A stretch of DNA of 64,000 nt from Lactobacillus sp. CBA3606 (GTDB taxonomy: Bacteria > Bacillota > Bacilli > Lactobacillales > Lactobacillaceae): positions 744,001 to 808,000 of the forward strand of contig NZ_CP027194.1 of NCBI RefSeq assembly GCF_002970935.1. Direction: 5' to 3'. Position 1 is the first letter of the stretch, and each line of letters opens with the position of its first letter. The notes beneath the pieces were generated by a model. The model saw only the letters and a list, made by a program, of their open reading frames with translations. It was not told the origin of the DNA and did not search any database. Of this stretch, positions 7,156 through 61,833 are shown one piece after another. A program made the translations under genes and the position numbers.

Positions 7156-7184
7156 ATGACTTAACGATTAACCACAACTATAAC

Positions 7185-7213: not shown

Positions 7214-7251
7214 TGAAAACTTTTTAAAACTTAACTATTGAACCGTGCCAA

Positions 7252-7324
7252 TGAGCCGTGACAGGCTCGAACTGTCGACCCTCTGATTAAAAGTCAGATG
7301 CTCTACCAACTGAGCTAACGGCTC
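7252..7324 (-). tRNA. tRNA-Lys (TTT), distal copy
   Basis: Acceptor GAGCCGT/ACGGCTC and anticodon loop CTTTTAA. It differs from the copy at 7571-7643 by one D-loop and one T-loop base. Confidence 0.95.
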
Positions 7325-7327
7325 AAA

Positions 7328-7400
7328 TGGAGGATACAGGGCTCGAACCTGTGACCCTCTGCTTGTAAGGCAGACGCTCTCCCAACTGAGCTAATCCTCC
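7328..7400 (-). tRNA. tRNA-Val (TAC), distal copy
   Basis: Acceptor GGAGGAT/ATCCTCC and anticodon loop CTTACAA. It matches the copy at 7647-7719. Confidence 0.95.
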
Positions 7401-7406
7401 AAATGT

Positions 7407-7523
7407 GCATGGCAACGTCCTACCCTCGCAGGGAGCGATCCCCCAACTACTCTCGGCGCTAAGAAGCTTAACTTCTGTGTTCGACATGGGAACAGGTGTA
7501 TCCTTCCCGCCATCGCTACCACA
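7407..7523 (-). rRNA. rrf: 5S rRNA, distal second copy
   Basis: 117-nt 5S rRNA containing the conserved ACACCTGTTCCCATG and AGAGTAGTTGGGGGATCG segments. It is the second 5S of the same operon, lying after a Val-Lys tRNA pair. It differs from the proximal copy at a few positions near the 5' end, and helix I can still form through G-T pairs. Exact ends are uncertain by a few bases. Confidence 0.92.
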
Positions 7524-7551
7524 CTATTGGAACTAAATTTTCAAATGTTAC

Positions 7552-7725: not shown

Positions 7726-7842
7726 GCATGGCAACGTCCTACCCTCGCAGGGAGCGATCCCCCAACTACTCTCGGCGCTAAGAAGCTTAACTTCTGTGTT
7801 CGACATGGGAACAGGTGTATCCTTCTTGCCATCGTCGCCACA
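7726..7842 (-). rRNA. rrf: 5S rRNA, proximal copy
   Basis: 117-nt 5S rRNA, the first after 23S in transcription order. It is near identical to 7407-7523 apart from bases in the 5' strand of helix I and the nearby segment. Ends are estimated. Confidence 0.93.
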
Positions 7843-7851
7843 CTATTGAGA

Positions 7852-7884
7852 AACTTGTGCTCTCAAAACTAGCTAATATCAAAT
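7852..7884 (-). promoter_or_regulatory. 3' half of the 23S rRNA processing stem
   Basis: This 33-nt segment downstream of 23S is complementary, with a few mismatches, to 10940-10972 upstream of 23S. Together they would form the long duplex that RNase III cuts to release precursor 23S rRNA. Confidence 0.75.
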
Positions 7885-7918
7885 TGTATTTTTCATCTTA
7901 CCGGAACACCAATTACTT

Positions 7919-10837
<2,919 letters not shown>

Positions 10838-45688: not shown

Positions 45689-45735
45689 ATTATTCGTGGC
45701 CCCTAGTCTCTCCTAAGTTAAATTAATGATTCGCT

Positions 45736-46356
45736 TTATGGTGTGGTCGTTGATGCGGTATTACTCAAGGTCCAAGTAATCGTGGCATCATAAGTGCCGG
45801 CATTCACACTAGACGCTTGATCCAATGCTAAAGTACTCGTGTCAGCGGTAGTAGCCGTAGCGGCACCAATCCCACCAGTTTTAGCACTCGTATTATCCCA
45901 AACTTCAGCCGCGGCGGTCCCAATGGTCTTCGCATCAATCCCGTTGCTAGCGGAATAAGTGATGGCACCATTGACAGATGTACTGCCGTTCTTAAATGGA
46001 CTGATGGCTGCTTGGACGTTCCAGTCTGGGGTAGTGGCCCCACGATAGTCACTCACCGTTAGTTCAGCGGTTTTGGCGCCAACAACCGTCCCACTTGTTG
46101 CGGTAGCCGGATTAGCGACCCCAGCGCCAGTATAGGCTAACGTTGGATTAGTCGTCATGACCGTCTTAACATCCGTATTCGCAAATTCAAAATCTGGGAC
46201 ACTAGTCAATTCTAGTTGACCGGCATCGACCGTAAATTCACCAACTGAATTGCCTGCAGTAACAGCGGCAGTATCAGCGGCTTGCGCTGGTATAACATAA
46301 ACCGCACTTAGCCCTAACGTCGCAACTAACCCTAAAACAAGTTGCATCTTCTTCAT
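45736..46356 (-). CDS. Small WxL-domain surface protein
   Basis: 206-residue secreted protein with a signal peptide (residues 1-27, ending AQAAD) and a single C-terminal WxL domain that attaches non-covalently to peptidoglycan. The distal motif is ITWTLSNT near residue 195. The proximal tryptophan motif appears as DWNVQA (about 110), where leucine is replaced by valine. It lies between the large WxL protein and the DUF916 protein, the usual small component of such complexes. Confidence 0.85.
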   Translation of the reverse strand: MKKMQLVLGLVATLGLSAVYVIPAQAADTAAVTAGNSVGEFTVDAGQLELTSVPDFEFANTDVKTVMTTNPTLAYTGAGVANPATATSGTVVGAKTAELTVSDYRGATTPDWNVQAAISPFKNGSTSVNGAITYSASNGIDAKTIGTAAAEVWDNTSAKTGGIGAATATTADTSTLALDQASSVNAGTYDATITWTLSNTASTTTP

Positions 46357-46388
46357 GAAATTACCTCCAATATAATTTTTTAATCACG

Positions 46389-48746
46389 CTAATCATCCGT
46401 GGTGGTCAAATCATAATTCAGGGTCCAACGTAGTGGCACTTGGTACGTATGCCCCCGTTGAATATTCGCTGAACTGCGATTTGCATCAACTTGCATTGCC
46501 AACGTTAATTGGGTACTGGTGGTTGGCGTGGTCGTCTTAGATAGTAAGTCAGTTGAATCATCATTAAGACTCATCTCCTTTGAAGTCGCTGTATCTCCGA
46601 TTTGATACTGATAAGTCATAATCGAATTATCCGCGACTGGCAAGGCGCCATCGGCCAAAGTTTGATTCAAGTCAGCATCGGCTTGTAAACTTAGGCTCAC
46701 TGGTACTTGCCAATCATTCGTTAAAGTCACGGTTTGTTGCCCGCTATAGATTAGCGCTTGATCAGTGACTTCGTTTAACTTAAAGACATTTGGAATGGTT
46801 GCTTTGACTTGCCCCGTGGTCACAACTTTTAAAGTCGTCGTAGGGTAAGTCGTCGCATTGGTTTTCAAGAAATCAGCAACATCGCTGGCCTCAATTTGAT
46901 CTCCGTTAGTCATCGTTTTCGGTAAGACCACTAATTTAACTTGATTCGTCTGTGCTAACGTCGCATAAATGGCTTTGGTTAGTTGCGTGGCATGTGCGGT
47001 AGGATCAACCGCACTGCTCTCGGTCACTTGGTCATCAGTTGCGGCTAACGCCGACTTAAAACCGGTTAAGTCTTTGACCGCACCAAGTTCAAAGGTATTA
47101 GTCGTTTGCGTTATATCATAGTTATCACTCGCTAACGGTGCGGCTTGCCAAGTTGAACTGTCATTTAATTGATAGAACAACTGATAGTCCGCTTTGTTAG
47201 TCGTGACGGTGGTTTTTAACTTAAGTGGTTTAGTCGCCGTCACGGTCCGCGTATCCGTTGCAGTACCGCCACCAGCGGTTGTTTTCCCGGTGGTATCAGC
47301 ACTCGTCCCGTCCCCCTGATACGCTGTCACCGTCTTTAGTTTCGGGACTCGGACCTGATTAGGGTCAAGTTGATCAATCACATCACTCGAAATATGGGCC
47401 ACATCAAAGCTACTAGCCATGACCCGCGCCGGTAACATGTTATTTTCAACCAACACATTTTTTCCTGAAATAACATTGCCATAGAAGTATTGGCTCGACC
47501 CAACGTTTGAGACCTTGATACTCGCATTGGGTGCCATGATACTGCCAGTAAATAAGTTATTGCTATCGCCTTGATCAGCCGTGAGATAGTTATCGCCGGT
47601 CGTCGTCGCATTTGGAAAGTTATTAAGAATATGACTTGAGAGTAATTGGTTAACCGTCGCCTTGGTGCCATCAGAATTCGTGACAGTATCGTTTTGATTG
47701 TTAGTAATCACCTTGCCTGTCGTGTCAGTCACGCTAAATTCGTAAGCGCTTCCCCAACTGAACGGCATACTCGTCGTCACCCCTGTCCAATTGACAAAGA
47801 TGTACGGCGCATACCGGTATGTGGCATAAGCTTGGTCGTCACCGCTGGCACTGCTAGCAGTATCCGTTGCCATATTTTTAATGTTGATTTTGACAGAGCT
47901 CGGTTTACCAGAAAAGTTTAAGAAGACCATCGGTGGTTCCGTATCAAAGACACTTTTATAATTGTCGGCTAACGTTATCGTCACACTCGGACTACTGCCA
48001 CTCAGATCACTATTGGCAGTGACTCCAGTGACGCCCCCATTGGCAATCGTCGCTTGCTTAGTTGTAAAAGAATTATAATAGGAAGAAATACGTTTAATTT
48101 GAGCGGCCGCAGCCTTAAAATAATTGGTAGCGTCCGTCGCATCAGCGTCCAACGTCAGGCTGGCACCATCATTTTCTTGGGCATAGTCGGCCAACATGGA
48201 AGCTTGATTGTCTTTAAAATAGGTCACATCGCCAACGTTGGCCGCCGCTAAGTGACTAATCAAGGTTTGATAACTTGTCTTTTGACTACTTGTCCAAACA
48301 TCAGCGGCTTGATGCCGTAGATTATTCGCCACAACCGTATCATCAGTGGCTAACTTGCCAGCATGATTCAAAATATCAAACATATTTTGTCCCTGCGACT
48401 TTAACGTACTATCAGTGGCATCATAAGGAATCTCATTGGCAACATACACGGGTGAAAATTGTGACAATTTATTCCACTCAATCCCATTATTATCAATGCC
48501 ACCATCACGTTCCACAATCTGATTAGCCGCATAGCGCCCCTCTAGCGTCGATATTGGACTCCCACCAATCGTCAGCTTGCCAGCTGCAAAAGCGTTATAG
48601 TACGACCCCACACCGAAAACATAATTGCCAACTGACGAATCCGGAAATGGTAACGTGTCGGCTTTAGCTGACAGCTGGCAAAAAACACCACTAAATAGAC
48701 TAATCAACGCTAAGAGCATAACTGCTAGTTGTTGTCTTTTTTTCAT
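46389..48746 (-). CDS. Large surface protein, choice-of-anchor A plus WxL-type C-terminus
   Basis: 785-residue secreted protein. A signal peptide (about residues 1-29) is followed by a long choice-of-anchor A-type adhesin domain to about residue 440, marked by YNAFAAGKLTIGGSP, SIMAPNASIKV and YFYGNVISGKNVLVENN. Thr/Asn-rich beta regions follow, and a C-terminal segment with YQVPLRWTLNYDL contains the distal WxL motif, suggesting cell-wall binding. Start at ATG 48746 with GGGG upstream. Likely role: adhesion or matrix binding as the large partner of the small WxL protein. No catalytic motif is seen. Confidence 0.8.
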   Translation of the reverse strand: MKKRQQLAVMLLALISLFSGVFCQLSAKADTLPFPDSSVGNYVFGVGSYYNAFAAGKLTIGGSPISTLEGRYAANQIVERDGGIDNNGIEWNKLSQFSPVYVANEIPYDATDSTLKSQGQNMFDILNHAGKLATDDTVVANNLRHQAADVWTSSQKTSYQTLISHLAAANVGDVTYFKDNQASMLADYAQENDGASLTLDADATDATNYFKAAAAQIKRISSYYNSFTTKQATIANGGVTGVTANSDLSGSSPSVTITLADNYKSVFDTEPPMVFLNFSGKPSSVKINIKNMATDTASSASGDDQAYATYRYAPYIFVNWTGVTTSMPFSWGSAYEFSVTDTTGKVITNNQNDTVTNSDGTKATVNQLLSSHILNNFPNATTTGDNYLTADQGDSNNLFTGSIMAPNASIKVSNVGSSQYFYGNVISGKNVLVENNMLPARVMASSFDVAHISSDVIDQLDPNQVRVPKLKTVTAYQGDGTSADTTGKTTAGGGTATDTRTVTATKPLKLKTTVTTNKADYQLFYQLNDSSTWQAAPLASDNYDITQTTNTFELGAVKDLTGFKSALAATDDQVTESSAVDPTAHATQLTKAIYATLAQTNQVKLVVLPKTMTNGDQIEASDVADFLKTNATTYPTTTLKVVTTGQVKATIPNVFKLNEVTDQALIYSGQQTVTLTNDWQVPVSLSLQADADLNQTLADGALPVADNSIMTYQYQIGDTATSKEMSLNDDSTDLLSKTTTPTTSTQLTLAMQVDANRSSANIQRGHTYQVPLRWTLNYDLTTTDD

Positions 48747-48788
48747 AAGTCCCCACACTTCTGATTGGTTGGAAAATAGTGTTTATAG

Positions 48789-49883
48789 TTATTTATTTTT
48801 TAATACACTCTTCAAATCGTCAAAATGTTGCTTAGCTAAGTCATGTAATTCCTTCAGCTTGATTTGATCAATTTCTGAAAAGGTCATTTCTTCCAACGCA
48901 GACTGCCTTTGTGACGCTCTTAAATCTGTATAGACCTGCTCAACATTCCAAGTTTTGATAAAATTAATAATTTTATCGCTGTATGCTAAAACATGTACTG
49001 GTTTCCCATATAGCCAACTTAAAATCATGGCATGGTATCGAGTAGCTATCACCGATTCAGCAAATTCAAATTCCTGTAAGGTCGATGAGATATCTTCATA
49101 ATTAACCACTGAAACGGCCTCATTATTACCAAAATTATTAACTTTCAAACTAGTAGCTGCCTCTAAATCACCATCTTTAACATTTACAGATAACAGGTGT
49201 ACATCCATACCTAGCTCTAATTGAATACTGATAAACGTTTTTAGTCTATTAAAATACGACTTGACCAGTTCATCGCTAAAACTATTCACTTTTAAATTCA
49301 TGACATTAACCAGCACATATTGATTATTGAATGGGTTAATATCTTTATTATCTACATCGAGCCCTAATACGACATCTGGCAGTAATTTTTGTTGAACATC
49401 TTTATGTTTAAAAAGTTGAAATGACGTTTTATCTCGCCACGTAACTCCCTCTACTGAAGAAAGAAAGTCTTCATACGAACGCATAAAGGTTTCACTGCTG
49501 TATGGTCCAAAATTACTGCCAATCACAAAGGTGTGTAAACTAATGGCTTGATTAAACCTGCGATACTTCAATAGATTTGCTGAACCTGCTGTCTCTATAA
49601 ATATTGAACCACCTAGTAATACAAAAACATCATTCCGTTTAAAAAACAGGCAATATAAATGCGCTAATAATTTTGTTGGTAAAAATAAGGTTAGTTTTTT
49701 TATCAGTGCGTTCTTAACGACTTTGATATTGGTCATTTTTTCATAATACTCATGAAAATCAGGACTACTATAATTTAAAATTCTAAATTCAATATTGGGA
49801 ATCATTTGTGTTAGGACAAGTAAAAATAAATCATCCCCAATATTTTGGACAAAGTAGCCGCTTATACTTATTTTTTTCTCCAT
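48789..49883 (-). CDS. Polysaccharide pyruvyl transferase family protein
   Basis: 364-residue cytosolic enzyme of the CsaB/ExoV family, expected to put a pyruvate ketal on a sugar of the exopolysaccharide repeat. Diagnostic motifs are SGYFVQNIGDDLFL (residues 7-20), VLLGGSIFIE (about 94) and the C-terminal SVIATRYHAMILSWLYGKP (about 283-301), with the conserved R-x-H. GAGGG five bases before ATG 49883 sets the start; it overlaps the flippase gene by 16 bases. It is the last gene of the operon and very AT-rich, like its neighbours. Confidence 0.85.
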   Translation of the reverse strand: MEKKISISGYFVQNIGDDLFLLVLTQMIPNIEFRILNYSSPDFHEYYEKMTNIKVVKNALIKKLTLFLPTKLLAHLYCLFFKRNDVFVLLGGSIFIETAGSANLLKYRRFNQAISLHTFVIGSNFGPYSSETFMRSYEDFLSSVEGVTWRDKTSFQLFKHKDVQQKLLPDVVLGLDVDNKDINPFNNQYVLVNVMNLKVNSFSDELVKSYFNRLKTFISIQLELGMDVHLLSVNVKDGDLEAATSLKVNNFGNNEAVSVVNYEDISSTLQEFEFAESVIATRYHAMILSWLYGKPVHVLAYSDKIINFIKTWNVEQVYTDLRASQRQSALEEMTFSEIDQIKLKELHDLAKQHFDDLKSVLKNK

Positions 49884-51265
49884 ATCAACCCTCGTACAAT
49901 TCCATAACAACTAATAAGTAGTTTTCGATTTAAGACCAACATCACGCTAAACGAAATGACAAATAAAACAGATTGAATCATCCCAGTAGTTAGATACAAC
50001 GTCATAATTTGGAATACCAAAATCAAGTGTCCTTTAATTAACAATGGATAATTTACAACAATTTTGATAATCTTTTTTGTATCGTGTAAACGAATGATAG
50101 CGATCGCTAAAAAGGCAATCATGGATCCCACTGCTGCACCAATAGTGCCAAAAAAAGGGACCAGTGCAAAATTTAAAATAACATTAAAGATAGCCCCTAA
50201 AACAGTGGTGTAAAAAATTCCTCGTGTAGCAAAAGCTGCAATATAAGTGGTCCCCAAGAAAGATGACAGACTGATATACATCACTGCCATTGCCAGCCAA
50301 GGAACAATTGTCCAGGCTGAAAAATAGCTTGGTGAAGCAATTATCCTTAGGATGACTTTATCAAAAACAATCAGGCTAGAAACCCCTACCAATAGTACTT
50401 GGATAATCAAATTAAAGACTATTGAATAATATTGACTGTTGTCCTTACTTTTATATTCTTCAACTGCCGACATTTGCCACGCCTGCATAAAAATTGTATA
50501 TAACATCGTTATTAATGATGGAATTTTATTAGCAACTGCATACAGACCATTTGCTGCTACCCCAACAAAAGAAACTACAAATAACCGACTTGAGGCGCTA
50601 GCTAGCCACCACGATAATGTATTAGGAATTAGTGGAATACTAAATGCCAACATTATTTTGATGAAAGCTGGACTAAAGGCGCTAATTCTTATATATCTCC
50701 ATGCTCTTAAAGCATTAAAAAGATAAATAAAGCCTATTAATTGAGCAATAATCATTGAGGCCAAGTAACCCATCAAACCAAAATGATAGACAAAGAGTAA
50801 TAGCACATTAGAGATGACAGTTCCAAGCGTAATTATAATCCCAGTCATCGCAAAAATTTTAACATGCCCAATTGAACGACTAAATTCCTGTAACATAGCA
50901 GTAATAGCCCCCAAAAATGTTAAGGTTAAAACAACCGATATGTATGGAATATTATGGAATAGTGGGCTAATTAATAACACAATTAGCAAACTAATTAATG
51001 ACACCGCAAAGCCGTTGGTCAATACCTTATGCGGATCATTACTCTTTTCCATTGTGAATCTAAAAACAGCATCTGAAATAGATAGTGTAATAATTGGTAT
51101 TAATAGATTTACAATAGTTGTAATTAAATCTGAAGACCCGAATTCTGCAGTTGTAAGTGTTCTCGTATAAAACGGTACCATAATAAAATTTAGTAACTTG
51201 CTTCCTAGGTTACTAATAGCAAACAGCATCGAGTTTCCAAGTAAACGTTTTCCTCTAGTATTCAT
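49868..51265 (-). CDS. Wzx-type oligosaccharide flippase
   Basis: 465-residue polytopic membrane protein with about 12-14 helices, of the polysaccharide transport (MATE-like) superfamily. The N-terminus GNSMLFAISNLGSKLLNFIM and MVPFYTRTLT with a following SSDLITTIV is characteristic. It flips lipid-linked repeat units across the membrane for polymerisation. The start at 51265 is the second ATG; the Shine-Dalgarno is weak. AT-rich. Confidence 0.9.
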   Translation of the reverse strand: MNTRGKRLLGNSMLFAISNLGSKLLNFIMVPFYTRTLTTAEFGSSDLITTIVNLLIPIITLSISDAVFRFTMEKSNDPHKVLTNGFAVSLISLLIVLLISPLFHNIPYISVVLTLTFLGAITAMLQEFSRSIGHVKIFAMTGIIITLGTVISNVLLLFVYHFGLMGYLASMIIAQLIGFIYLFNALRAWRYIRISAFSPAFIKIMLAFSIPLIPNTLSWWLASASSRLFVVSFVGVAANGLYAVANKIPSLITMLYTIFMQAWQMSAVEEYKSKDNSQYYSIVFNLIIQVLLVGVSSLIVFDKVILRIIASPSYFSAWTIVPWLAMAVMYISLSSFLGTTYIAAFATRGIFYTTVLGAIFNVILNFALVPFFGTIGAAVGSMIAFLAIAIIRLHDTKKIIKIVVNYPLLIKGHLILVFQIMTLYLTTGMIQSVLFVISFSVMLVLNRKLLISCYGIVRGLIWRKK

Positions 51266-51324
51266 ATTCAATCCCATCGTTACATTATAAAATGTATTTT
51301 AAACACACCTATCAAAATAAGTAA

Positions 51325-52317
51325 TCAAACTTTTACCAATGTACTGTTTTTAGCTAGTGTTTCATCAAACTTTTTTCTTTTACCGATTAATAACCTTATC
51401 ATTGGATATAACTCAAATAAAAATAACCACGCTAAAAATTTTCGTCGTTTTGGTAAGGTATTAAACAACATTTTTTTAATTGATATGTTCTGCCTTAAAA
51501 ATTTTCGTAATTCAATCAATTCGTTATTATCTTTACTTTGAATGACCGCCTGAAAGGAATCACTAAGCCACGTTATAAGGACCATTTCCTGATACCAATC
51601 TGCAGCATCTTCTTTTGAACAATATTTTGTCAAAATGATTTTTAGCCTAGTCAAAAACTTTTTATTATTGTCAACAATGTTATATTCTACTTTATGAGTA
51701 ACAGACGCTAAGTTCTGTCGATATAAATAATACGAAACTTCAGAAACATAGATACGTTTTGCCACTAAAAAGGCCTCAGCATTGAATAACATATCTTCTC
51801 CAACCTTTACACCAATCGGAAATTCTATTTTATGATCTTGTAACATTTTCAAACGATATATTTTTGAAAATGGCGCAGGGATACATTCTCTACTAGGAAT
51901 TATCTTCAGAATCTGTTTAACTAAATTTTTTTTGTCGTTTGCTGTTGAGTATTCTGAGTTCTTCTGGCCTAAAGCAAATGAGATAATATCATAGGAATCT
52001 ATTGTATCCAGTCGATCGATAATTGCTTGAAAAACTGCTACTTCAAACAAATCATCCGAATCTAAAAATGCAACATAGGGGGTCTTACATATTTTCAAGC
52101 CGAAATTCCGTGCATAACTAACACCTCTATGCTGATTAAAAATAACTTTTGCTTTTAAGTTTCTAGCAATGTGACTAAGATCCTTACGTGCCTCCAATGA
52201 AGACCCGTCATCCACAAAAATGATTTGAATTGATTTTAGTTTTTTTAATCTATCAGTTAATTCAGGCAAATATTTTTCACTATTATATGTTGGAATAATC
52301 AAAGTCAGTTTTTCCAA
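51325..52317 (-). CDS. Glycosyltransferase family 2
   Basis: About 330 residues. The GT-A fold starts at KLTLIIPTYNSEKYLPEL (residues 3-20), with IIFVDDGSSL (about 32), RGVSYARNFGLKI (about 66) and VAFLDSDDLFE (the DxD-like metal site, about 83). TTG 52317 follows GGAGG by nine bases and is the best start. It adds one sugar to the lipid-linked repeat unit; the donor is unknown. The C-terminal 80 residues are basic and may associate with the membrane. Confidence 0.88.
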   Translation of the reverse strand: MEKLTLIIPTYNSEKYLPELTDRLKKLKSIQIIFVDDGSSLEARKDLSHIARNLKAKVIFNQHRGVSYARNFGLKICKTPYVAFLDSDDLFEVAVFQAIIDRLDTIDSYDIISFALGQKNSEYSTANDKKNLVKQILKIIPSRECIPAPFSKIYRLKMLQDHKIEFPIGVKVGEDMLFNAEAFLVAKRIYVSEVSYYLYRQNLASVTHKVEYNIVDNNKKFLTRLKIILTKYCSKEDAADWYQEMVLITWLSDSFQAVIQSKDNNELIELRKFLRQNISIKKMLFNTLPKRRKFLAWLFLFELYPMIRLLIGKRKKFDETLAKNSTLVKV

Positions 52318-52339
52318 GTTAAATAACCTCCGCATACAT

Positions 52340-53512
52340 CTACTTGGACCAAATGGGGTTTAGCAAAATGTCTTTTAATGGCTCCAACAATGGTGGAAAA
52401 CTTGCATAATGCACAATAATTAGATTTAAAACACTAAGCATTATTATTGAAACAGGAATAAGTAGTTCCCACCAATATAATTTTTTTCTTAAAAAACTAA
52501 CTTTACTTAAGATAATTACAGACGTTGGAATGGTAAATTGAACAATTCTACTAAACACACTAAAATCAATCAATAACATGTTGAAAATAACTATTATTAA
52601 TAAATAATTCAATATTGGTAGAAAATTAGCCTGTCGTTTCAATTCAATAATAGTAATCAGTATTACAATCAATATAATAAAATATAATAAATTATCAATT
52701 TTTCTTAAATCAGTACTACTACGTGTATAAACCAAAAAATCATTGAAATAATTTACTATCATTTTTATAATTCGATTATATTCAATCATACTTACCACTA
52801 CAGCTAATGCGATCACTCCTTGCGCAACCTTTTTATCATGTTTATTTGTAGAAAACATCAAAGATATAATCCTTAAAAACAAGAAAATGAATGCCGCTGG
52901 ATGAAAGCTGGCTGCTAATATATAAAACCAAAAATAACGTAGTTTAAAACCATTATGAATTTCAAAATAGGTCGTAATCATTAATACTGAAAGCGATAGG
53001 TACCATCGAAAGCCGCTAATAACAAGATAAGGTTGAAGACTGATAAAGATTGCTATCATCCACAGAAAATATTTCAACCAATCATGTGACTTACTCTCTA
53101 AATAATTTTTCTTCATGACAACTAACCGGCTAGCATAAGTAATAACCAAAGTAGTTGCACTTAGAACACGATAACTTGAATACTTTGAAACAAAATATAG
53201 AACGATTCCAGATCCAGGCCATTCTGAAGCATTCAATCCCTGAACAGAAAATGGGGCGGAATAGAGCTTATACAGATAGTCAAATACATTGGCTGCATTA
53301 ATCGTCTGCATATAAGCCATGTATCGAGACATATCGTCAACTTCGCGAGGGGCATAAAAGAAACTGATATACCCTAATAAAAGAATAAATATTATTATTA
53401 TTAATTGATGACCTTTATTATATAAAAAAGAAACTGGAGCGCTAATTAACAATCCTAATAATGGGCACACCAATCCTATTAAAAAAACCGACGCTCCCAA
53501 TAATAGCTCCAC
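52340..53512 (-). CDS. EpsG-family polysaccharide polymerase (Wzy-like)
   Basis: 390-residue protein with about 10 predicted membrane helices. The extracellular loop YAPREVDDMSRYMAYM (about residues 54-69) is characteristic of the EpsG family, which polymerises repeat units outside the membrane. It directly abuts the glycosyltransferase gene upstream. Sequence variability is expected for polymerases, so assignment rests on topology, this motif and context. Confidence 0.82.
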   Translation of the reverse strand: MELLLGASVFLIGLVCPLLGLLISAPVSFLYNKGHQLIIIIFILLLGYISFFYAPREVDDMSRYMAYMQTINAANVFDYLYKLYSAPFSVQGLNASEWPGSGIVLYFVSKYSSYRVLSATTLVITYASRLVVMKKNYLESKSHDWLKYFLWMIAIFISLQPYLVISGFRWYLSLSVLMITTYFEIHNGFKLRYFWFYILAASFHPAAFIFLFLRIISLMFSTNKHDKKVAQGVIALAVVVSMIEYNRIIKMIVNYFNDFLVYTRSSTDLRKIDNLLYFIILIVILITIIELKRQANFLPILNYLLIIVIFNMLLIDFSVFSRIVQFTIPTSVIILSKVSFLRKKLYWWELLIPVSIIMLSVLNLIIVHYASFPPLLEPLKDILLNPIWSK

Positions 53513-54679
53513 TTATTTTTCCTCTTTTCCTTCAATCAATTTTATATACTGATTAACAATATTACGATTACTAATAAAGCCCAAATTTGGCCGATAATTT
53601 GAGTCAGTTTTATAGTCAATAAAAAATTTTATTTGTTTTGAAAAATCCGCTTCAATCTGATTAAAATCTGTCTCATCATTTCTAAAATCAAATCTTTGTG
53701 TCAAAACACCATTGGGCAATTGCACCGGATAATGCGCTTTATCATTATAGTTTGTGTCTTTCCCCTGTGATAATATCTCTCTAGGGCCACTAAAAATATC
53801 AGCAGATATTACTGGTAATTTACTTTTAACGGCTTCAACCAAGGCTCCTGGAAATCCTTCAAACCAGGATAAGCTTACATACAGATCACACTGTTCCATC
53901 CAAGTTAGAACATTATTTCGACTACCAATAACATGCACATAATCTTGCATACCATTCTGATTAATATACTTTTTGATATTGCGACTATCTGGACCCTCAC
54001 CAATCAGAATTAAATGAATATTTTCATGTTTTAAAAATTTGAATCCATGTACTAAATTCATTTGTCCTTTGGGCGTTGTTATCCGTCCAACATTAAGAAC
54101 TATCTTGCCATTGCCCTTAGTTATACGATCAATTAACATTTTATCTTCTAGTTTTAAACTTGGTTGTTTTTCATTCTTGGCCAGCGGATTATAAATAACT
54201 TGAATGTTTTTCAAACTAAAATTTTCGACTAAATCTGCTTTAATTCCATCAGAGACTGCAACTATACTATCGGCCTTTGGATATATATGCTTAATACCAG
54301 CTTGATAGATAAATTTCTTTATTTTACTTTTCTCAATTTCATTATCAAACGATTTAGTACTATGCTCTGTAATAATCCGTCGAACACGTTTAGGTGTTAA
54401 TATGATATTCAGTAGATTATCAATAATTCCAAAACTAATTACTACTGAAAACCGATTACTTGTTAATACCCTTTTTAAATCAAAAAATTTTCCTATTTTT
54501 TTACCCTTTAAGTGGACAACTTGCACTGCATGCGTATCAACTCTAATTGGCAGTTTATTATTCACTAGAATTAGCGTAATTTCATAGTACGGTTTTAACA
54601 GACCGATTAATTCAGACGCTACATGTGGCATTCCTCCCCAATAAAATTGAGGAATTAAAAATGCTATTTTTTTCTTCAT
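53513..54679 (-). CDS. Glycosyltransferase family 4 (GT-B)
   Basis: 388-residue GT-B glycosyltransferase. The N-terminal loop FLIPQFYWGGMPHVASELI (residues 6-24), LNVGRITTPKGQMNLV (about 195) and the retaining-enzyme motif WFEGFPGALVEAVKSKLPVI (about 271-290, E-x7-E) are clear. It transfers a sugar to the growing repeat unit on the cytosolic face. Its start overlaps the end of the Stealth gene by four bases. Confidence 0.9.
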   Translation of the reverse strand: MKKKIAFLIPQFYWGGMPHVASELIGLLKPYYEITLILVNNKLPIRVDTHAVQVVHLKGKKIGKFFDLKRVLTSNRFSVVISFGIIDNLLNIILTPKRVRRIITEHSTKSFDNEIEKSKIKKFIYQAGIKHIYPKADSIVAVSDGIKADLVENFSLKNIQVIYNPLAKNEKQPSLKLEDKMLIDRITKGNGKIVLNVGRITTPKGQMNLVHGFKFLKHENIHLILIGEGPDSRNIKKYINQNGMQDYVHVIGSRNNVLTWMEQCDLYVSLSWFEGFPGALVEAVKSKLPVISADIFSGPREILSQGKDTNYNDKAHYPVQLPNGVLTQRFDFRNDETDFNQIEADFSKQIKFFIDYKTDSNYRPNLGFISNRNIVNQYIKLIEGKEEK

Positions 54680-55701
54680 AGTTCACCCTTTTCAAAATTA
54701 GAAACATCGGGAAAACGTTTTTTAAACATTGATAAGATAGCATCCAAATTAGCATCAGTTGCCGTTTGAACATCGTTAATATTGACTAATTTGACCTTAC
54801 CAGTTTTAAATAATAACCGTTTTGCTTTTTCAGGATTATCTGTATTGGCCGTTTGACCAAAATACATACTTCTAGGTTGCGCATGATTTAAAATAATTTG
54901 ATAGTAACGAACAAACTGAATCGAGTAATCATCTGATGTTCTAAATCGCTGTAAAAAAGTATGACTCAACTCAGGCTCTAGCATATCAGCTGCCGCTTTC
55001 ATATCAGTCTTTGTAAATGAATATGCCGTATGCGCATCATACAATCGAGTGAATCTTGGAAAAACACTAAAGAAAACATTCAATAAAAAGATAGACAATC
55101 CTTGTCGTAACGAGAAAAATTTCTGCCACTCAGCCTTTAAAATCTCTTTTTTATTAACCAACTGATTCACTTTCATCGTATTGTTAACCAAACTATAATC
55201 ATAAGATTCCACCGGCATTATGACCGACTGACCGATAGTATCTTTCACTGCACCCTTTGCCGTGAAAAAATCATTTTTTGAAACTGGGCGATTGATGAAG
55301 AAATCATCATTAAAATAGACAAAATGCTCAACTAAACCCGGTATTTTATATAAGTTCCAATCAATCGTGTTCGAATCAAAGGTTGGCAAATAACGTTTAT
55401 TAATAATCGTTGCATGATCAATTATTTCAATCTTAGGATTATTTAAATTCAAAAAATCTGGCACCTGACTATCAGTCACAACGTATATTTTATGAACCCA
55501 ACTTGCATTCGCTTCAACTGCACGAAACCAATATTTAAACAACCCAAAATCTCGATATCGACTCTGCGAATCTTCATCATCTTTACTTGCTTTTGTAATG
55601 TGTTCAAGTTGTTCATATTTAGCTCTTTTTTGTTGCCAATTAGAATCATTGTCGTTAACCCAAGTTACAACAAAGTCAACAGGAAATTTAATAGAATCCA
55701 T
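54676..55701 (-). CDS. Stealth-family sugar phosphotransferase
   Basis: 341-residue enzyme of the Stealth/GlcNAc-1-phosphotransferase family that transfers hexose-1-phosphate to an acceptor sugar, giving phosphodiester-linked polysaccharides. Conserved region 1 is PVDFVVTWVNDNDSNW (about residues 7-22). Region 2 is RYRDFGLFKYWFRAVEANA through to VEHFVYFNDDFFINRPV (about 48-145, with the FNDD catalytic motif). Region 3 spans the RLYDAHTAYSF area (about 218), and a C-terminal region follows near LLFKTGK. It predicts a phosphate-containing exopolysaccharide. Confidence 0.88.
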   Translation of the reverse strand: MDSIKFPVDFVVTWVNDNDSNWQQKRAKYEQLEHITKASKDDEDSQSRYRDFGLFKYWFRAVEANASWVHKIYVVTDSQVPDFLNLNNPKIEIIDHATIINKRYLPTFDSNTIDWNLYKIPGLVEHFVYFNDDFFINRPVSKNDFFTAKGAVKDTIGQSVIMPVESYDYSLVNNTMKVNQLVNKKEILKAEWQKFFSLRQGLSIFLLNVFFSVFPRFTRLYDAHTAYSFTKTDMKAAADMLEPELSHTFLQRFRTSDDYSIQFVRYYQIILNHAQPRSMYFGQTANTDNPEKAKRLLFKTGKVKLVNINDVQTATDANLDAILSMFKKRFPDVSNFEKGEL

Positions 55702-55869
55702 AATAGTCCCTTCGCATAAAAATCATTAATTATCAACAATATAAATTTTAAATCATTTATTACTTAAAACAGTTTAATGTAATCACACTCAAAAGCCATT
55801 AGAAGATCGTCCAAAAATTGTGCCCATAATTAACGTGATAATGAACTTTTTACTAAAACTCGTAAAAAA
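55702..55869 (-). other. AT-rich gap inside the exopolysaccharide operon
   Basis: 168 bp without a gene, between two glycosyltransferase-type genes that are otherwise tightly packed. It is very A/T-rich, with no terminator hairpin and no convincing promoter. It may be a junction between the conserved operon head and a replaced distal block. Confidence 0.5.
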
Positions 55870-56640
55870 CTATCTACGAAATAATTTAGTGCGCCTGTGC
55901 TTTCTGATCCCAAATATAATATATGTGATCATGTTTTTTGATGCTTTTAATAAAGATAATTTTTCTTCATATCGATAGACATTCCAAACCCACAAAGCAG
56001 ATTTAAACTTGTTACTACTAATTGACTTCCCATGTACTCTATATTGGGCTACCATTTCTGGACACAAAAATGCTTTCATTTCTTCATTTCTTAATAGCTT
56101 CAACCACAATATATAATCTTCATGTTTAACATTTTTAAAAGATAATCCTTTTAAAAATGAGCTTTTAACTAGTACCGTTAATAATGGAATAAAATTGGTT
56201 TTTAAAAGATCTGAATAAGTCGCCTTAAAATTTAGTTTGTCAATTATTTTTAATGTTTCTTGCTTACTGTCGATAATTTCATAATAACTGTAAGTAAAAT
56301 CAATTTTATTTTTCTCTATAAATTGCAACTGTACACTTAACTTATTTTTCAACCAAATGTCATCAGAATCAATAAAGGCGACATACGCTCCCCTCATGTT
56401 TCGAAGACCGATATTTCTCGCAGATGCAACACCTGCATTATTAGCTGATTTGAAATATCTTAAGCGTACATCTCCTGAAAATGACTGAACTATCTTGCTT
56501 GTTCCATCTGTTGAACCATCATCGACAATAATTAATTCCAAATTTTTATACGTTTGTGCAAAAACAGAGTGAATAGCAGCTGCGATATAATTTGCACTAT
56601 TATAAACTGGCATAATCACAGAGATTAATGGTTCGCTCAT
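55870..56640 (-). CDS. Glycosyltransferase family 2
   Basis: 256-residue GT-A transferase with LISVIMPVYNSANYIAAA (residues 5-22), LIIVDDGSTDGT (about 36), GVASARNIGLRNMRGAYVAFIDSDDIW (split over about 69-96, DxD) and a C-terminal basic end. It probably adds the second sugar after the priming enzyme. It overlaps the priming transferase gene by four bases. Confidence 0.9.
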   Translation of the reverse strand: MSEPLISVIMPVYNSANYIAAAIHSVFAQTYKNLELIIVDDGSTDGTSKIVQSFSGDVRLRYFKSANNAGVASARNIGLRNMRGAYVAFIDSDDIWLKNKLSVQLQFIEKNKIDFTYSYYEIIDSKQETLKIIDKLNFKATYSDLLKTNFIPLLTVLVKSSFLKGLSFKNVKHEDYILWLKLLRNEEMKAFLCPEMVAQYRVHGKSISSNKFKSALWVWNVYRYEEKLSLLKASKNMITYIIFGIRKHRRTKLFRR

Positions 56641-57314
56641 CTCGCGCCATCCCCTGTAAAAATAACTCGAATGGTTCCAAGCAACATCTTAATATCAAAC
56701 CACAACGAATAGTGTGCGATATAATAGTTATCCAGCTTACACTTTTCATCCGGAGTAATATCATAGCCACCGTTAATTTGAGCATAACCAGTGATGCCCG
56801 GAATGATTCGTAGCCGCTTAGGAAAATCTTCAAATTGTTGACTGAATTCTTCGGTTAGTACTGGCCGTTCTGGACGTGGTCCAACTAAACTCATATCACC
56901 TTTGAGCACATTCCAAAATTGTGGTAATTCATCAATCCGAGTTTTACGCATGAAACGGCCTACTGGCGTAATGCGATTATCATTTTTTTGAGCCCAGACG
57001 GCACCGGTCTTAGCTTCCGCATTTTGATACATTGAACGGAGCTTAATCACCATAAAGTTCTTCCCCATCAGACCAACCCGTTCTTGCTTATAAAAGGCTG
57101 GTCCCGTTGAAGTTAATTTAACTAACAGTGCAAAAACAAGCACTAACGGCGAACTTAAGAGGCTACCTAATAGCCCAACGACTAGATCAAATAGGCGCTT
57201 AATCACTAAGGCAGGACCAGTGACTGGCTGCCCAATCTTCTTTACAAAGCGATACGTTGGTTGTACATGTGGTACTTTTATGACTGTCGTGTCATTAACT
57301 TCGGGTTGTCGCAT
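56637..57314 (-). CDS. Undecaprenyl-phosphate sugar phosphotransferase (priming enzyme)
   Basis: 225-residue short-form polyisoprenyl-phosphate hexose-1-phosphate transferase that starts each repeat unit. One N-terminal membrane segment ([20 protein letters not shown], about residues 39-58) is followed by the catalytic domain with [14 protein letters not shown] (about 88), [15 protein letters not shown] (about 122) and [15 protein letters not shown] (about 139). It lacks the four-helix extension of WbaP-type enzymes. The first sugar cannot be told from sequence. Confidence 0.93.
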
Positions 57315-58239
57315 TTTGAACCCCTTCCCAATACTGCGTAAGGCCCTTCTCCAATGACCATTGTGTTGAATAGCCTAACTTGATTAATTTATTAATATTG
57401 GCAAATGAACGCTTAACTTCACCAGTCCGGCCAGCAGCCACTTTTATATCTAACTGATAACCAGCAATTTTTTCATAAGTGGCAATGATATTGTTCAAGC
57501 TAAGTTCATGCCCATTGGCAATATTGAAGACTTGATGACGGGCTTGTTTTTCAGTAATTAGCCAAAGTGCCTGAATAACGTCTTCAACGTTGATAAAATC
57601 ACGAGTCTGGGACCCATCACCGTACAACGTAAATGGTTTATGATGTTCTAAACAATCCGTTAAAATTGACAACACCCCAGAATAGGGTGAACTTGGATTC
57701 TGACCCGGACCATAAACATTAAAGAACCGCACACAAACCGTTGGTAAATCATATAATTCACCATAAGCTAACACATACCGTTCAGTCGCGTACTTATCAA
57801 TCGCATAAGGCGACAATGGATCGACGCGGGAATCCTCTTGCTTCGGTAATTCTGGCAAATTCCCATATACCGCCGCAGAAGATGTAAATAGAAACTGTTT
57901 AATCGGTAATTTAGCTGCCCGAATAAATTCCAAGGTGTTTAACACCGCATTATGATTAATTTCATGGGTTTCACCTGGACGTTCAATTGAGTCAGCAACA
58001 CTAGCAACTGCAGCTAAAAAGTAAATATAATCAAACTTTTCTTCTTGTAACAGTTGTTGCATGAACTTCTCATTACGAACATCTTCAATGAAAATTGTCA
58101 CTTGATCACGATACTTAATATTAGCCGTATTCCCCATCGACAAATTATCAACAACGACGACTTCAATCCCCTGTTGTACCAATCGATCCACTAAATGCGA
58201 GCCGATAAAGCCCGCACCACCAGTCACCAAAGCTTTCAA
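57295..58239 (-). CDS. NAD-dependent sugar epimerase (UDP-glucose 4-epimerase family)
   Basis: 314-residue extended short-chain dehydrogenase. NAD-binding VTGGAGFIGSHLVDRL (residues 4-19), FTSSAAVYG (about 117) and the catalytic YAIDK (about 142) are intact. It probably converts UDP-glucose or UDP-GlcNAc to the galacto form needed for the repeat unit. It overlaps the priming transferase gene by 20 bases, suggesting linked supply of the first sugar. Confidence 0.88.
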   Translation of the reverse strand: MKALVTGGAGFIGSHLVDRLVQQGIEVVVVDNLSMGNTANIKYRDQVTIFIEDVRNEKFMQQLLQEEKFDYIYFLAAVASVADSIERPGETHEINHNAVLNTLEFIRAAKLPIKQFLFTSSAAVYGNLPELPKQEDSRVDPLSPYAIDKYATERYVLAYGELYDLPTVCVRFFNVYGPGQNPSSPYSGVLSILTDCLEHHKPFTLYGDGSQTRDFINVEDVIQALWLITEKQARHQVFNIANGHELSLNNIIATYEKIAGYQLDIKVAAGRTGEVKRSFANINKLIKLGYSTQWSLEKGLTQYWEGVQNATTRS

Positions 58240-58257
58240 TACTTAGCACTCCCTTTT

Positions 58258-59031
58258 TTAAAACAACCAAAACCGGCGCTTTTTTCGTGGCATTTCAATC
58301 GTTTGAACATCAACTAAATCACCATTCAATAAGTTCCGGGCATTCATTGCGAATTGCGTCGCATAATCAGTACCAAGTTTTTCCAGAACTTGATACGCTG
58401 CTGTCATTGCAAATTGCCGATTGGCTAGCACATGGGCATCTGAAGCCACCACCTGTACTAAGCCACACTCGACAAACTCCTTTGCCGTTCGCTGAACCTG
58501 CTTGCCAAAAGTCCCCACTAAACTCGTTGCGGTTACTTGTGCTAGCACGCCCTGCTTGACTAATTCATATAACTTTTGTGGTTCTGCAATCAATTGGGCA
58601 TTGCGTTCCGGATGAGCAATCACTGGTGTAATTCCATCACAAGAAAGTTGAAAAATGAGTTCTTCCAAATAACTCGGTACCATCTCGTGTGGTAATTCCA
58701 GCAATAAATACTGCCGATCTACATCAATCCCTAGTAAATCATCCAAATGGGTCATCAATTGCCCATTTAAGTGCACCTCTTGACCAGGAAAGATCTCCAA
58801 ATCTATTCCGCGACGGTCAAGTTCACTTTGAAACGTTTGGACGGCTTGTCGAACCGCCGGTGCATGATTAACATAATGTCGATCGAGATGATGTGGCGTT
58901 GCTAAAATATATTTAATGCCATCGGCAACTGCCGCTTGCGCTAACCCAATTGAGTCTGCTAATGATGGTGAGCCATCATCAATTCCTGGTAAAATATGAC
59001 AATGAATATCCACCAAATTATTTTTCTTCAT
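58258..59031 (-). CDS. Tyrosine-protein phosphatase of the PHP family (CpsB/Wzb-like)
   Basis: 257-residue manganese-dependent phosphotyrosine phosphatase. PHP-domain metal motifs are DIHCHILPGIDDGSPSLADS (residues 7-26), ATPHHLDRHY (about 46), VIAHPERN (about 140) and VVASDAHV (about 198). It dephosphorylates the partner kinase encoded just upstream to regulate chain length and export. ATG 59031 lies inside the 3' end of the kinase gene (14-base overlap). A longer frame upstream is unsupported. Confidence 0.92.
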   Translation of the reverse strand: MKKNNLVDIHCHILPGIDDGSPSLADSIGLAQAAVADGIKYILATPHHLDRHYVNHAPAVRQAVQTFQSELDRRGIDLEIFPGQEVHLNGQLMTHLDDLLGIDVDRQYLLLELPHEMVPSYLEELIFQLSCDGITPVIAHPERNAQLIAEPQKLYELVKQGVLAQVTATSLVGTFGKQVQRTAKEFVECGLVQVVASDAHVLANRQFAMTAAYQVLEKLGTDYATQFAMNARNLLNGDLVDVQTIEMPRKKRRFWLF

Positions 59032-59740
59032 CACTGTAATACCCGTTGCTATAGCCGTAATAGCCATTATGCTGACCATCTTGCACATCATTTAAAATTG
59101 ATCCTAAAATGTTTGCGTGTGACCGTTTCAGGACCGAAACAGCCTCGCGGACCGCCGCCTTTTGTGCCACACCCTGACGAACAACTAGGACCGTACCATC
59201 AACTTTATTCGCTAATAACTGCGAATCTGTCACAGGCAAAATCGGTGGCGCATCAATAATAACCAAATCTAATTTTTGCGTCGTTTCTGTTAAAAAAGCA
59301 TTCATCATCTGGCTACCTAACAGTTCTGCCGGGTTCGGTGGCTTGGGACCGCTCGTCATCACAAAGAGATTATCAATGGTTGATTGAATCGCTTGATTCA
59401 CATCATCCGTTTGATGACTTAACCATGAACTTAATCCCCGCTCATTTGATAGCCCGAATGTTTTATGCACAGTTGGCCGCCGCAAATCAGCGTCAACTAA
59501 CAAGACTTTTAGCCCTTCATTTGCATATTCGACCGCTAAATTAGCACTAACAGTGGACTTACCTTCGCCTAAAGTTGCCGACGTCATCATTAATGTCCGT
59601 AACTCGTGATCAGTGGCCGCAAAATTAATATTGGTTCGAATTGTTTTAATTTGTTCTGTAATCACCGACGTCGGTTCATTAATTGTGGTCAAATTAATTG
59701 GCGCGGTTAATGTCGTCGTTTTTCGTTTTCGATTAAACAT
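59018..59740 (-). CDS. Tyrosine-protein kinase CpsD/CapB (BY-kinase)
   Basis: 240-residue cytosolic BY-kinase. Walker A ATLGEGKSTVSANLA (about residues 55-69), Walker A' VLLVDADLRRPTVHKTFG (about 79-96) and Walker B LDLVIIDAPPILP (about 156) are present. The C-terminus has the autophosphorylation tyrosine cluster YYGYSNGYYSDEEK. It needs the membrane partner encoded next door (Wzz-like) for activity, as in streptococcal CpsC-CpsD. Confidence 0.94.
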   Translation of the reverse strand: MFNRKRKTTTLTAPINLTTINEPTSVITEQIKTIRTNINFAATDHELRTLMMTSATLGEGKSTVSANLAVEYANEGLKVLLVDADLRRPTVHKTFGLSNERGLSSWLSHQTDDVNQAIQSTIDNLFVMTSGPKPPNPAELLGSQMMNAFLTETTQKLDLVIIDAPPILPVTDSQLLANKVDGTVLVVRQGVAQKAAVREAVSVLKRSHANILGSILNDVQDGQHNGYYGYSNGYYSDEEK

Positions 59741-59754
59741 CCGTTACCTCCTCG

Positions 59755-60525
59755 CTAAATTCGTTTACGTGACCGTTGGTTGGTCGCCATTTCACTACTA
59801 GCATTACTTTGAATATTCTCAACTTGCCGCCGAACATGCTGGTGTCGGTGCTGATGATTAACTTGACCTAAGTTCGCTAAGCCCAAGTCATCCGTTAGAA
59901 ATTCAACATTATGAACTCGCCGATCGGTAATCACCCGCACACTAGCGTAAACAAAGCCTAATAGCACACCGATCACTAACCCGATGAGTAAATTCAAACT
60001 CTTCTTCGGTGACACTGGACTATGGGCAATACTTGCTGGCGAAACGATTGTCACATTATTAACTTTAATAATTTTCTTAACTTGCTTCTTAAAACTTTCG
60101 GCAACCTGATTGGCAATTTCAGCACTCTTGGTTGCGTCTGCATCAACAACATCAACCGAAAAAACTTGTGAATTTTGAGTACTGGAGACACTGACTTCGT
60201 TTTTTAAGGTCCCTAACGAACGGGTATAGCCATACTGTTTTTTTAAGGCTTTACTAGTTGGGTTTAAAATAACCTGGTTCGTAATCAATTCCTTATAAGT
60301 CGTAATCATCTGCACATCGGCTTGCTGATCAGCATATTGTGTCGCCGAATTCTCACTATGCCGACTAACCAAAATCTGCACACTCGACTTGTACTGCGGC
60401 GTAATGACAAAAAAAGTCATCACAGCGGCCACTAAAACACCGGCCACGGTCCAGGCAATAATGGCACGCCAATACTTACGAACTAGTCGGATAAAAAAGT
60501 CAAAACTTACTGCTTGATCCATCAT
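59755..60525 (-). CDS. Chain-length determinant/kinase activator (Wzz/CpsC)
   Basis: 256-residue membrane protein with two membrane helices (about residues 20-40 and 178-198) around an extracellular Wzz domain (KSSVQILVSRHSENSATQYA). A proline-rich segment lies just before the second helix (SPASIAHSPVSPKKSL). Its C-terminal cytosolic tail is longer than usual (about 55 residues) and rich in His, Gln and Arg (VNHQHRHQHVRRQ). It is the first gene of the exopolysaccharide operon, with GGAG eight bases before the second ATG. Confidence 0.9.
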   Translation of the reverse strand: MMDQAVSFDFFIRLVRKYWRAIIAWTVAGVLVAAVMTFFVITPQYKSSVQILVSRHSENSATQYADQQADVQMITTYKELITNQVILNPTSKALKKQYGYTRSLGTLKNEVSVSSTQNSQVFSVDVVDADATKSAEIANQVAESFKKQVKKIIKVNNVTIVSPASIAHSPVSPKKSLNLLIGLVIGVLLGFVYASVRVITDRRVHNVEFLTDDLGLANLGQVNHQHRHQHVRRQVENIQSNASSEMATNQRSRKRI

Positions 60526-60595
60526 TCACGCTCCACTCAACATAATCTCTTATACGAACAATATTTTCACGTTATACACCAGTCGTGTCATCATT

Positions 60596-60623
60596 TTGTA
60601 AAAAATAATGCCATTTTATAAGT
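60596..60623. repeat. Direct repeat copy 1 with 11-6-11 recombination-site-like layout
   Basis: The centre AATGCC (60607-60612) is flanked by A/T arms TTGTAAAAAAT and ATTTTATAAGT that are partly inverted (AAAAAT/ATTTTA). The core 60602-60620 matches copy 2 at 18 of 19 bases in the same orientation. Confidence 0.6.
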
Positions 60624-60743
60624 AAATCTATATATAAATCTAACATTATTGAATAAATTGTCAATGTAATTTGAAGATATTGTGCCCGAAAACGCTTAAT
60701 TTGGTGTTTTTAGCCAGTAAACGTAAAACTAGCAACAATAATT

Positions 60744-60765
60744 AATAATAGATGGAACTATTATT
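60744..60765. repeat. Perfect 8-6-8 inverted repeat next to copy 2
   Basis: AATAATAG and CTATTATT are perfect complements around a 6-bp spacer (60752-60757). The right arm overlaps the left arm of direct repeat copy 2. Confidence 0.65.
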
Positions 60766-60790
60766 TACAAAATAATGCCGTTTTATATTA
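60763..60790. repeat. Direct repeat copy 2
   Basis: Same layout as copy 1: centre AATGCC (60774-60779) with arms ATTTACAAAAT and GTTTTATATTA. It starts 167 bp after copy 1 (about 16 helical turns). Confidence 0.6.
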
Positions 60791-60835
60791 AGAAATATAT
60801 ACACAGTCTATCATGTGACTGTTATATGATTTAAC

Positions 60836-60863
60836 TTGATAAATGATTAATGTCGTTTAAAAT
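60836..60863 (+). promoter_or_regulatory. Promoter of the recombinase gene
   Basis: -35 TTGATA (60836-60841) and -10 TAAAAT (60858-60863) are 16 bp apart, about 50 bp before the start codon. Confidence 0.65.
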
Positions 60864-60877
60864 TAATTATTAATCAT
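60843..60877. promoter_or_regulatory. Operator-like dyad centred on the recombinase -10 box
   Basis: ATGATTAAT (60843-60851) and ATTAATCAT (60869-60877) are perfect complements, 26 bp centre to centre, and symmetric about the -10 hexamer. A bound dimer would block the promoter. Confidence 0.55.
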
Positions 60878-60913
60878 CTCTATTAGTAATTAACGAAGAA
60901 AGTAGGCGTTAAC

Positions 60914-61474
60914 ATGCAATACAATGTGGAACCCTTACGCAGTCCCGCTGAAATTGCGGAATTCGTTAACCTAGCAAGCCTTGGTGTTCATGGTCAACGA
61001 AATTCACTGTTAGTTCTAGTTGGACTCAACACTGGCCTGAGAATGAGCGACATTCTTAACCTCAAGGCCGGTCAGGTCCGTTATCAAGACATTGTCACTA
61101 TCATTGAACAAAAAACGCAAAAAAAGCGCCTGATTTTATTAACCAAACTACGACCCAAACTCGACTTGTACATTCGTAATCTAGCTGACGACGACTACCT
61201 CTTCACGGGTCAATCACCACAGCACGCCCTCAGCGTTAATGCCGTCTATAAATTTTTTCAAACCATTGCTCGTAAAATGCATCGCAATGATATTGGCACC
61301 CACACTCTCCGTAAAACATTTGGCTATCACTACTATCAGCGCACCCACGATGTTGGCACGCTAATGATGATCTTCAACCATTCCAGTGAAGCCATCACAA
61401 AACGCTACATCGGGCTTAATCAAGACGTCATTTTGGCACAAATGGCCAACTTTTCGCTCGGATTGGATACTTAA
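60914..61474 (+). CDS. Short tyrosine recombinase/integrase family protein
   Basis: 186-residue phage-integrase-family protein consisting almost only of the catalytic domain. Active-site residues are all visible: Arg in LNTGLRMSDIL (about residue 43), the beta-hairpin Lys in EQKTQKKRLI (about 63), His-x-x-Arg in GTHTLRKTFGYHYY (about 135-138), His in IFNHSSEAIT (about 158) and the nucleophile Tyr in KRYIGL (about 168). The N-terminal SAM-like core-binding domain of XerC/D and phage integrases is absent or tiny. Divergent from the exopolysaccharide operon, with its own promoter and terminator. Likely a local recombinase or a DNA-binding relic; it is not accompanied by phage genes. Confidence 0.8.
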   Translation: MQYNVEPLRSPAEIAEFVNLASLGVHGQRNSLLVLVGLNTGLRMSDILNLKAGQVRYQDIVTIIEQKTQKKRLILLTKLRPKLDLYIRNLADDDYLFTGQSPQHALSVNAVYKFFQTIARKMHRNDIGTHTLRKTFGYHYYQRTHDVGTLMMIFNHSSEAITKRYIGLNQDVILAQMANFSLGLDT

Positions 61475-61482
61475 TTGGACAC

Positions 61483-61526
61483 AAAAAAGGACGTACCGAC
61501 TCATTGCAAGTCAGTACGTCCTTTTT
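61483..61526. terminator. Bidirectional terminator between recombinase and yrzB
   Basis: AAAAAAGGACGTACCGACT and AGTCAGTACGTCCTTTTT pair with one mismatch around a short loop. It closes both convergent units and marks the island edge. Confidence 0.9.
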
Positions 61527-61539
61527 CAATTCTATTAGC

Positions 61540-61833
61540 TTACTGCATCCCACCATCATCGGCTAGGAAGGTATTTAAAACTTGTTCAACCATATCCCAT
61601 TCATCATCGGACTCGATTAATTGTAAGTCGCCATTGTCGCCGTCTTCTGGATTGAAGATATAGGCTTGAATATCAACTTCATCATCTGCCGCCGCATCGG
61701 CTGGGTAGATTAAAATGTAAGAATGACCGAAGTCTTCCGAATCAAAGGTAAATAAGATATTAAATAAAGTTTCGTTACCTTCGTCGTCAACTAATGTGAT
61801 GACATCGTCTTTACTGTTTTGGTTTTGGCTCAT
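61540..61833 (-). CDS. yrzB: DUF1292 family protein (YrzB, UPF0473)
   Basis: 97-residue acidic cytosolic protein of the UPF0473 family. The conserved [21 protein letters not shown]-like part ([12 protein letters not shown], residues 9-20) and YILIYPA are characteristic. The function is unknown. It is third in the conserved ireB-ruvX-yrzB cluster downstream of alaS. Confidence 0.9.

Follow-up and report, generated by a model that had tools for sequence, protein, structure and literature searches.

In the 64,000-nucleotide stretch of the Lactobacillus sp. CBA3606 genome that was analysed in this work (the window), the intergenic region between a recombinase gene and a run of exopolysaccharide (EPS) genes most likely represents a promoter inverton, which would be flipped by the adjacent 186-aa recombinase and would thereby switch the EPS promoter; we assign a probability of roughly 0.88 to this reading. 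The locus can provisionally be classed among the fim-like promoter invertons, here with a single-domain recombinase of its own; its catalysis, its rate of switching and the effect on EPS output are deduced from sequence. Comparison of the intergenic region between related strains revealed that the sister species G019 carries the segment between the two sites inverted: it aligns with 150 of 165 identical positions (91%) as reverse complement vs. 102 of 197 (52%) directly, and the flanks are colinear and 90–95% identical in direct orientation (left 532/592, right 142/149). The breakpoints fall at the spacers of the sites and the inner half-sites are swapped, the outcome expected of strand exchange there. 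The two species thus provide direct comparative evidence for a site-specific inversion between them. The original prediction of a local DNA switch is supported by this inversion, by the spacer match within loci and by contig ends at spacers in the draft genome G017. The coordinates of all features are listed in Table 1.

Table 1. Features of the EPS-linked locus in the window and of two related elements (L121, L128).
Feature	Position	Strand	Basis or remark
12-ORF EPS gene run	48789..60525	-	ORF calls, family matches; presumed single operon
wzz/CpsC-type chain-length gene, first of the EPS genes	59755..60525	-	ORF call, profile match
Site S1 (EPS side), GTCATCATTTT-GTAA-AAAATAATGCC, 26 bp	60587..60612		Repeat search, pair statistics
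Invertible segment between spacers, about 165 bp	60602..60764		Pairwise alignment; inverted vs. G019
Promoter-like TTGACA-16-TAGATT, TG before -10, toward wzz (ON)	60637..60664	-	Conservation
Site S2 (recombinase side), GGAACTATTAT-TTAC-AAAATAATGCC, 26 bp	60754..60779		Spacer is reverse complement of that of S1
Candidate recombinase promoter outside the segment, TTGATA-16-TAAAAT, weak	60836..60863	+	Regional promoter-like matches no more than in shuffles
Recombinase ORF, single-domain tyrosine recombinase, 186 aa	60914..61474	+	ORF call, profile matches, alignment
Terminator-like hairpin after recombinase, -24.2 kcal/mol, z -6.1	61474..61540	+	Folding
marR-type inverton, second type in the genus	L121:6932-7072; marR 7111-7527; recombinase 7726-8277
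msa promoter sites, G016	L128:7785-7810 and 7905-7930		Plan 11-4-11, spacers GTAA/TTAC

The wzz gene, which starts at 60525 on the minus strand, and the recombinase gene are separated by 388 bp (60526-60913), and the coordinates agree with the head-to-head arrangement of a recombinase and a 12-gene polysaccharide run that had been described initially. Every one of the 12 leftward ORFs (60525 to 48789) matches a polysaccharide-type or ParA/AAA family. The run comprises wzz, a cpsD-type ATPase, cpsB, an epimerase, a priming sugar transferase, three glycosyltransferases, a Stealth-type protein, an EpsG-like polymerase, a flippase and a pyruvyl transferase. After the EPS genes a gene for a WxL-interacting protein and adjoining secreted-protein-like ORFs are found (44630-48758). 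The recombinase lies head-to-head with wzz in seven of the eight genomes of the EPS clade; in the eighth, G017, the contigs end between the two genes. Besides the window's genome this layout is thus present in six genomes, five of which (including G019) possess both sites; in the sixth, L. plantarum G016, the first site is decayed. Adjacency was disturbed in both plasmids that were looked at: in L004 the two genes are separated by 2.6 kb and another ORF, in L085 an IS and turned EPS genes are present. L. plantarum plasmid L085 also encodes BREX genes beside the EPS-linked recombinase (L085:1-7400), and L. dongliensis and L. songbeiensis carry a second cpsD/wzz pair on the opposite flank of the recombinase (L006:6711-8201, L007).

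The nearest relatives of the recombinase encoded in the 2.56-Mb genome were found in Lactiplantibacillus. The catalytic domain PF00589 (residues 13-169 of 186) is the sole domain detected by profile search and scored 77.6 bits vs. a curated cut-off of 27.1, which places the protein in this family and bears out the claim that a core-binding domain is almost absent. Likewise, the complete catalytic set ascribed to this 186-residue protein was recovered: R43, K67, K70, H130, R133, H156 and Y165 are unchanged across 38 aligned recombinases, the window's included, and R43, K67/K70, H130, R133, H156 and Y165 presumably fulfil the catalytic roles of the R-K-H-R-H-Y set. The protein stayed below the cut-offs of all six listed NCBIfam Xer-type models (XerC/XerD/XerA/XerS equivalogs), the top score being 71.2 bits vs. 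a cut-off of 220. The G019 recombinase shares 99% protein identity with it; the genes differ at 52 nucleotides, 46 of them at third positions, with two amino acid changes, and the gene is evidently under strong purifying selection. The invariant catalytic residues and this selection disfavor the possibility, raised at the outset, that the protein is a mere repressor or inactive. In E. coli the fimS promoter segment is flipped by two recombinases, FimB and FimE, in a Gram-negative system that controls fimbriae. These proteins (200 and 198 aa) resemble the window's recombinase in being short and single-domain, so that the “minimal” format is less unusual than was initially supposed. Close kinship to the FimB/FimE family proper was not found, as the similarity is only local (44-48 residues, E 1e-5 and 4e-5).

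The repeats in the 388-bp gap had been proposed to possess the layout of recombination sites, and the pair statistics agree: the top inverted 26-mer pair (22/26, at 60589/60752) was equalled in none of 60 shuffles (maximum 20). S1 and S2 both follow an 11-4-11 plan. As their spacers are inverted relative to each other, inversion and not excision is predicted. Reverse-complementary spacers within a locus, of five types that vary between loci, were found in 14 of the 18 genus loci scanned, where the second site was picked on the arms alone and the 14 include G007, whose second site contains Ns. The four misses are G016 and plasmid L004, both with a decayed S1, and G006 and G012, which lie at contig ends. 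Permutation of the spacers over the 14 matching loci yielded a mean of 3.7 and a maximum of 12 matches (200,000 permutations), a figure which gives no clean probability since the loci are related. Decay of the S1 arms in L. plantarum G016 has left 16 of 26 positions identical to the S2 reverse complement, with the aligned spacer still complementary; the element copies of G016 and plasmid L004 may be locked.

Allowing at most one mismatch, a search of 21 genus genomes located the site pattern 19 times, in 11 of them, and the reversed control nowhere; the window's genome contains one such place, S1 of the EPS locus. All 11 pattern-bearing genomes are among the 14 that encode a recombinase at 54% identity or more, while none of the seven other genomes has a place (Fisher p=0.001, kinship ignored). 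A wider survey comprised loci with at least 40% identity, each compared with 20 first-order Markov shuffles. Around most recombinase relatives outside Lactiplantibacillus it detected no convincing site pair, at a sensitivity that missed the pair in L004, L085 and L087/L115 and chose a wrong pair in L005/L090/L117. Outside the genus, pairs topping the shuffles with matching spacers derived from Furfurilactobacillus milii (L017 and L019, AGCA/TGCT) and, by one point, from a Lactobacillales MAG (L064, TGAC/GTCA). Pairs in L020, L027, L046 and L047, among others, exceeded the shuffles and have non-matching spacers. In the F. milii loci the recombinase is encoded between two MarR-like genes with the site pair downstream. 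In Pediococcus argentinicus (L016:6001-8946) a recombinase relative directly precedes an L-type lectin/MucBP surface protein gene, and the interval contains one partial site.

Every readable genome displays a single orientation. The window is in the orientation referred to as ON, whereas G019, G013, G020, G004, G018 and G016 are OFF-like. Six plasmid records (H21-H26, L004's own included) align in one piece to 80% or more of the L004 element and hence share its OFF orientation, so that one genome in ON stands against six genomes and six plasmid records in OFF. Comparison thus shows that both orientations occur in nature, between species, and that the recombinase is retained along with the sites and their spacers.

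For switching within a single culture, the indication comes only from assembly breaks. Relative to G013, the first base of G017 contig C34 is the last spacer base of S2, and C29 stops at the equivalent position in S1; both ends of the marR-linked element of G017 likewise lie at spacers (contigs C27 and C36). Four contig ends of this draft therefore coincide with the spacers of two elements, one EPS-linked and one marR-linked, for which we estimated a rough chance of about 4e-14, on the assumption of 100 contig ends and with the positions chosen post hoc. Because the contigs end inside the sites, the orientation in G017 is unreadable. The flanks at these ends share just 10 and 6 bases, less than would cause an assembly break at an ordinary repeat, which suggests that G017 was assembled from a mixed-orientation culture. 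In G012 a contig begins three bases into such a site and, in our reading, a contig end of G006 falls in a spacer, while the EPS element was assembled through without a break in the drafts G004, G018 and G020.

Brought into a common orientation, eight elements, several of them close relatives, share TTGACA (8/8), a distance of 16 nt, a -10-like hexamer preceded by TG and then a palindrome. A regional promoter scan was no richer than shuffles (4 found vs. a mean of 4.2), so that conservation is the basis of the promoter call; G004 and G018 have a weak -10, and there the promoter was outside the top five. The internal promoter-like sequence points toward wzz in the window and toward the recombinase in the other readable copies. 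The predicted fold of the OFF transcript toward the recombinase in G019 reaches -25.2 kcal/mol (z -9.9), that of the window's ON transcript toward wzz -9.5 kcal/mol (z -1.7).

In the mechanism that we propose, the 186-aa recombinase would bind S1 and S2, exchange strands at the 4-bp spacers and flip the segment. In the state of the window the internal promoter would drive wzz and the EPS genes to its left (ON). Once flipped, as in the relatives, it would read across S2 toward the recombinase; S2 in this state is a near-perfect palindrome and would appear in the transcript as a strong hairpin. The EPS genes would lose their promoter (OFF), and the recombinase may receive read-through transcription that is presumably attenuated by the hairpin. 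Cells could thus probably switch their EPS coat on and off, i.e., the coat would be phase-variable.

It is unlikely, though the best surviving alternative, that another cellular recombinase (small plasmid-borne, Xer or a paralog) inverts the segment and the adjacent gene product just binds the sites or is a bystander. The window's genome does encode two further, weaker matches to the recombinase (36% on contig C4, 25% at C1:489712), and the msa inverton of G016 described below lacks a match within its 15-kb stretch and would need service in trans. However, the adjacent gene adjoins wzz in nearly all genomes of its clade, retains its catalytic residues under purifying selection and falls into an EPS clade of its own, in which GGCA arms predominate at the sites, vs. 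CGCA at the paralog loci. Less probable still is a function of the sites in excision or cassette exchange of EPS modules instead of promoter inversion, as might be considered from the second wzz/cpsD pair in L006 and L007 and from AAAATAATGCC, which also occurs as a direct repeat in the window; yet the spacers are inverted, not direct, and the inner segment is inverted while the flanks are colinear. Excision between the direct AAAATAATGCC copies was rejected on account of the inverted spacers and the inversion seen in G019. That the recombinase is a catalytically idle repressor and the inversion between species an old, fixed event fits the single, almost always identical orientation per readable genome and is nevertheless the least credible explanation, in view of breakpoints at spacers, spacers co-varying within loci, the G017 contig ends and the complete catalytic set.

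The EPS-linked recombinases of eight genomes and two plasmids form one branch of the tree (support 100/98) and ten marR-type paralogs another. A MarR gene is located just upstream of the paralog in nine of the ten cases (Pfam confirmation for one), and in G005 the two are on separate contigs. At the paralog loci, the MarR gene is preceded by site pairs whose arms are of the CGCA type.

For L. plantarum, inversion of the msa promoter has been shown by experiment, with a stem-loop reported for one state, and the available part of that publication names no dedicated recombinase for the msa-marR inversion and suggests RecT (PMC8493755, 2021). Its four primers place the msa promoter in G016, where two sites of the same plan are found at the position which the inversion PCR needs. 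The ORF region that follows msa codes for a MarR-like protein with 31% identity to the paralog-linked MarR. As no match to the recombinase was detected within the 15-kb msa stretch of G016, the msa inverton must be served in trans. Both the EPS-linked and the marR-linked recombinase of G016 lie about 40 kb from this stretch, one on either side, and the CGCA-like msa arms make the marR-linked enzyme the better candidate. We therefore regard this paralog as a candidate msa invertase. A Lactobacillaceae-wide extension is tentative and in our estimation somewhat more doubtful than probable: the clade of recombinases of about 185 aa might constitute a switch in which dedicated copies flip EPS and marR promoters, one paralog serves msa in trans, a site attenuates transcription and the orientation feeds back on the recombinase and biases the switch.

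Invertible promoters of polysaccharide operons are known from the capsule loci of Bacteroides, where Mpi acts as a global invertase for many loci. The window locus resembles these invertons as a presumed invertible promoter of polysaccharide genes, whereas the pattern search in its genome found one place, S1; the Bacteroides invertons and Mpi are also mentioned in the accessible text of PMC12355684. Within the Gram-positives, the eps2 promoter of the gut bacterium Bifidobacterium breve reorients similarly, in a different phylum and with a recombinase to which the consulted portion of PMC4155821 assigns no identity. The msa-marR inverton is closer, with the same genus, two inverted 11-4-11 sites and identical spacers GTAA/TTAC; in contrast to the window locus it controls a mannose-specific adhesin and has no recombinase match in the 15-kb stretch (PMC8493755, as far as available). 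Near-identical L. rhamnosus isolates differ by an intergenic inversion in the EPS cluster next to welE, thus also in an EPS intergenic region of Lactobacillaceae; unlike here, it was reported as a genome difference, and the word “recombinase” is absent from the main text as searched (PMC7513527). Promoter inversion as such is hence well established, including cases at capsule and EPS loci and, within Lactiplantibacillus, at msa (PMC8493755, PMC4155821 and PMC12355684, in the parts at hand). A literature search of titles and abstracts retrieved no description of a lactobacillar EPS inverton that comes with a recombinase of its own, and we therefore count this combination as new.

For the msa inversion, where the part of PMC8493755 considered here suggests only RecT, a concrete candidate enzyme can now be named, and the EPS locus offers targets for orientation-specific PCR. 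If the proposed reading is true, EPS production, which is central to food and probiotic use, would be phase-variable through a defined and easily tested DNA switch, and such a switch could explain surface differences between genetically identical cultures.
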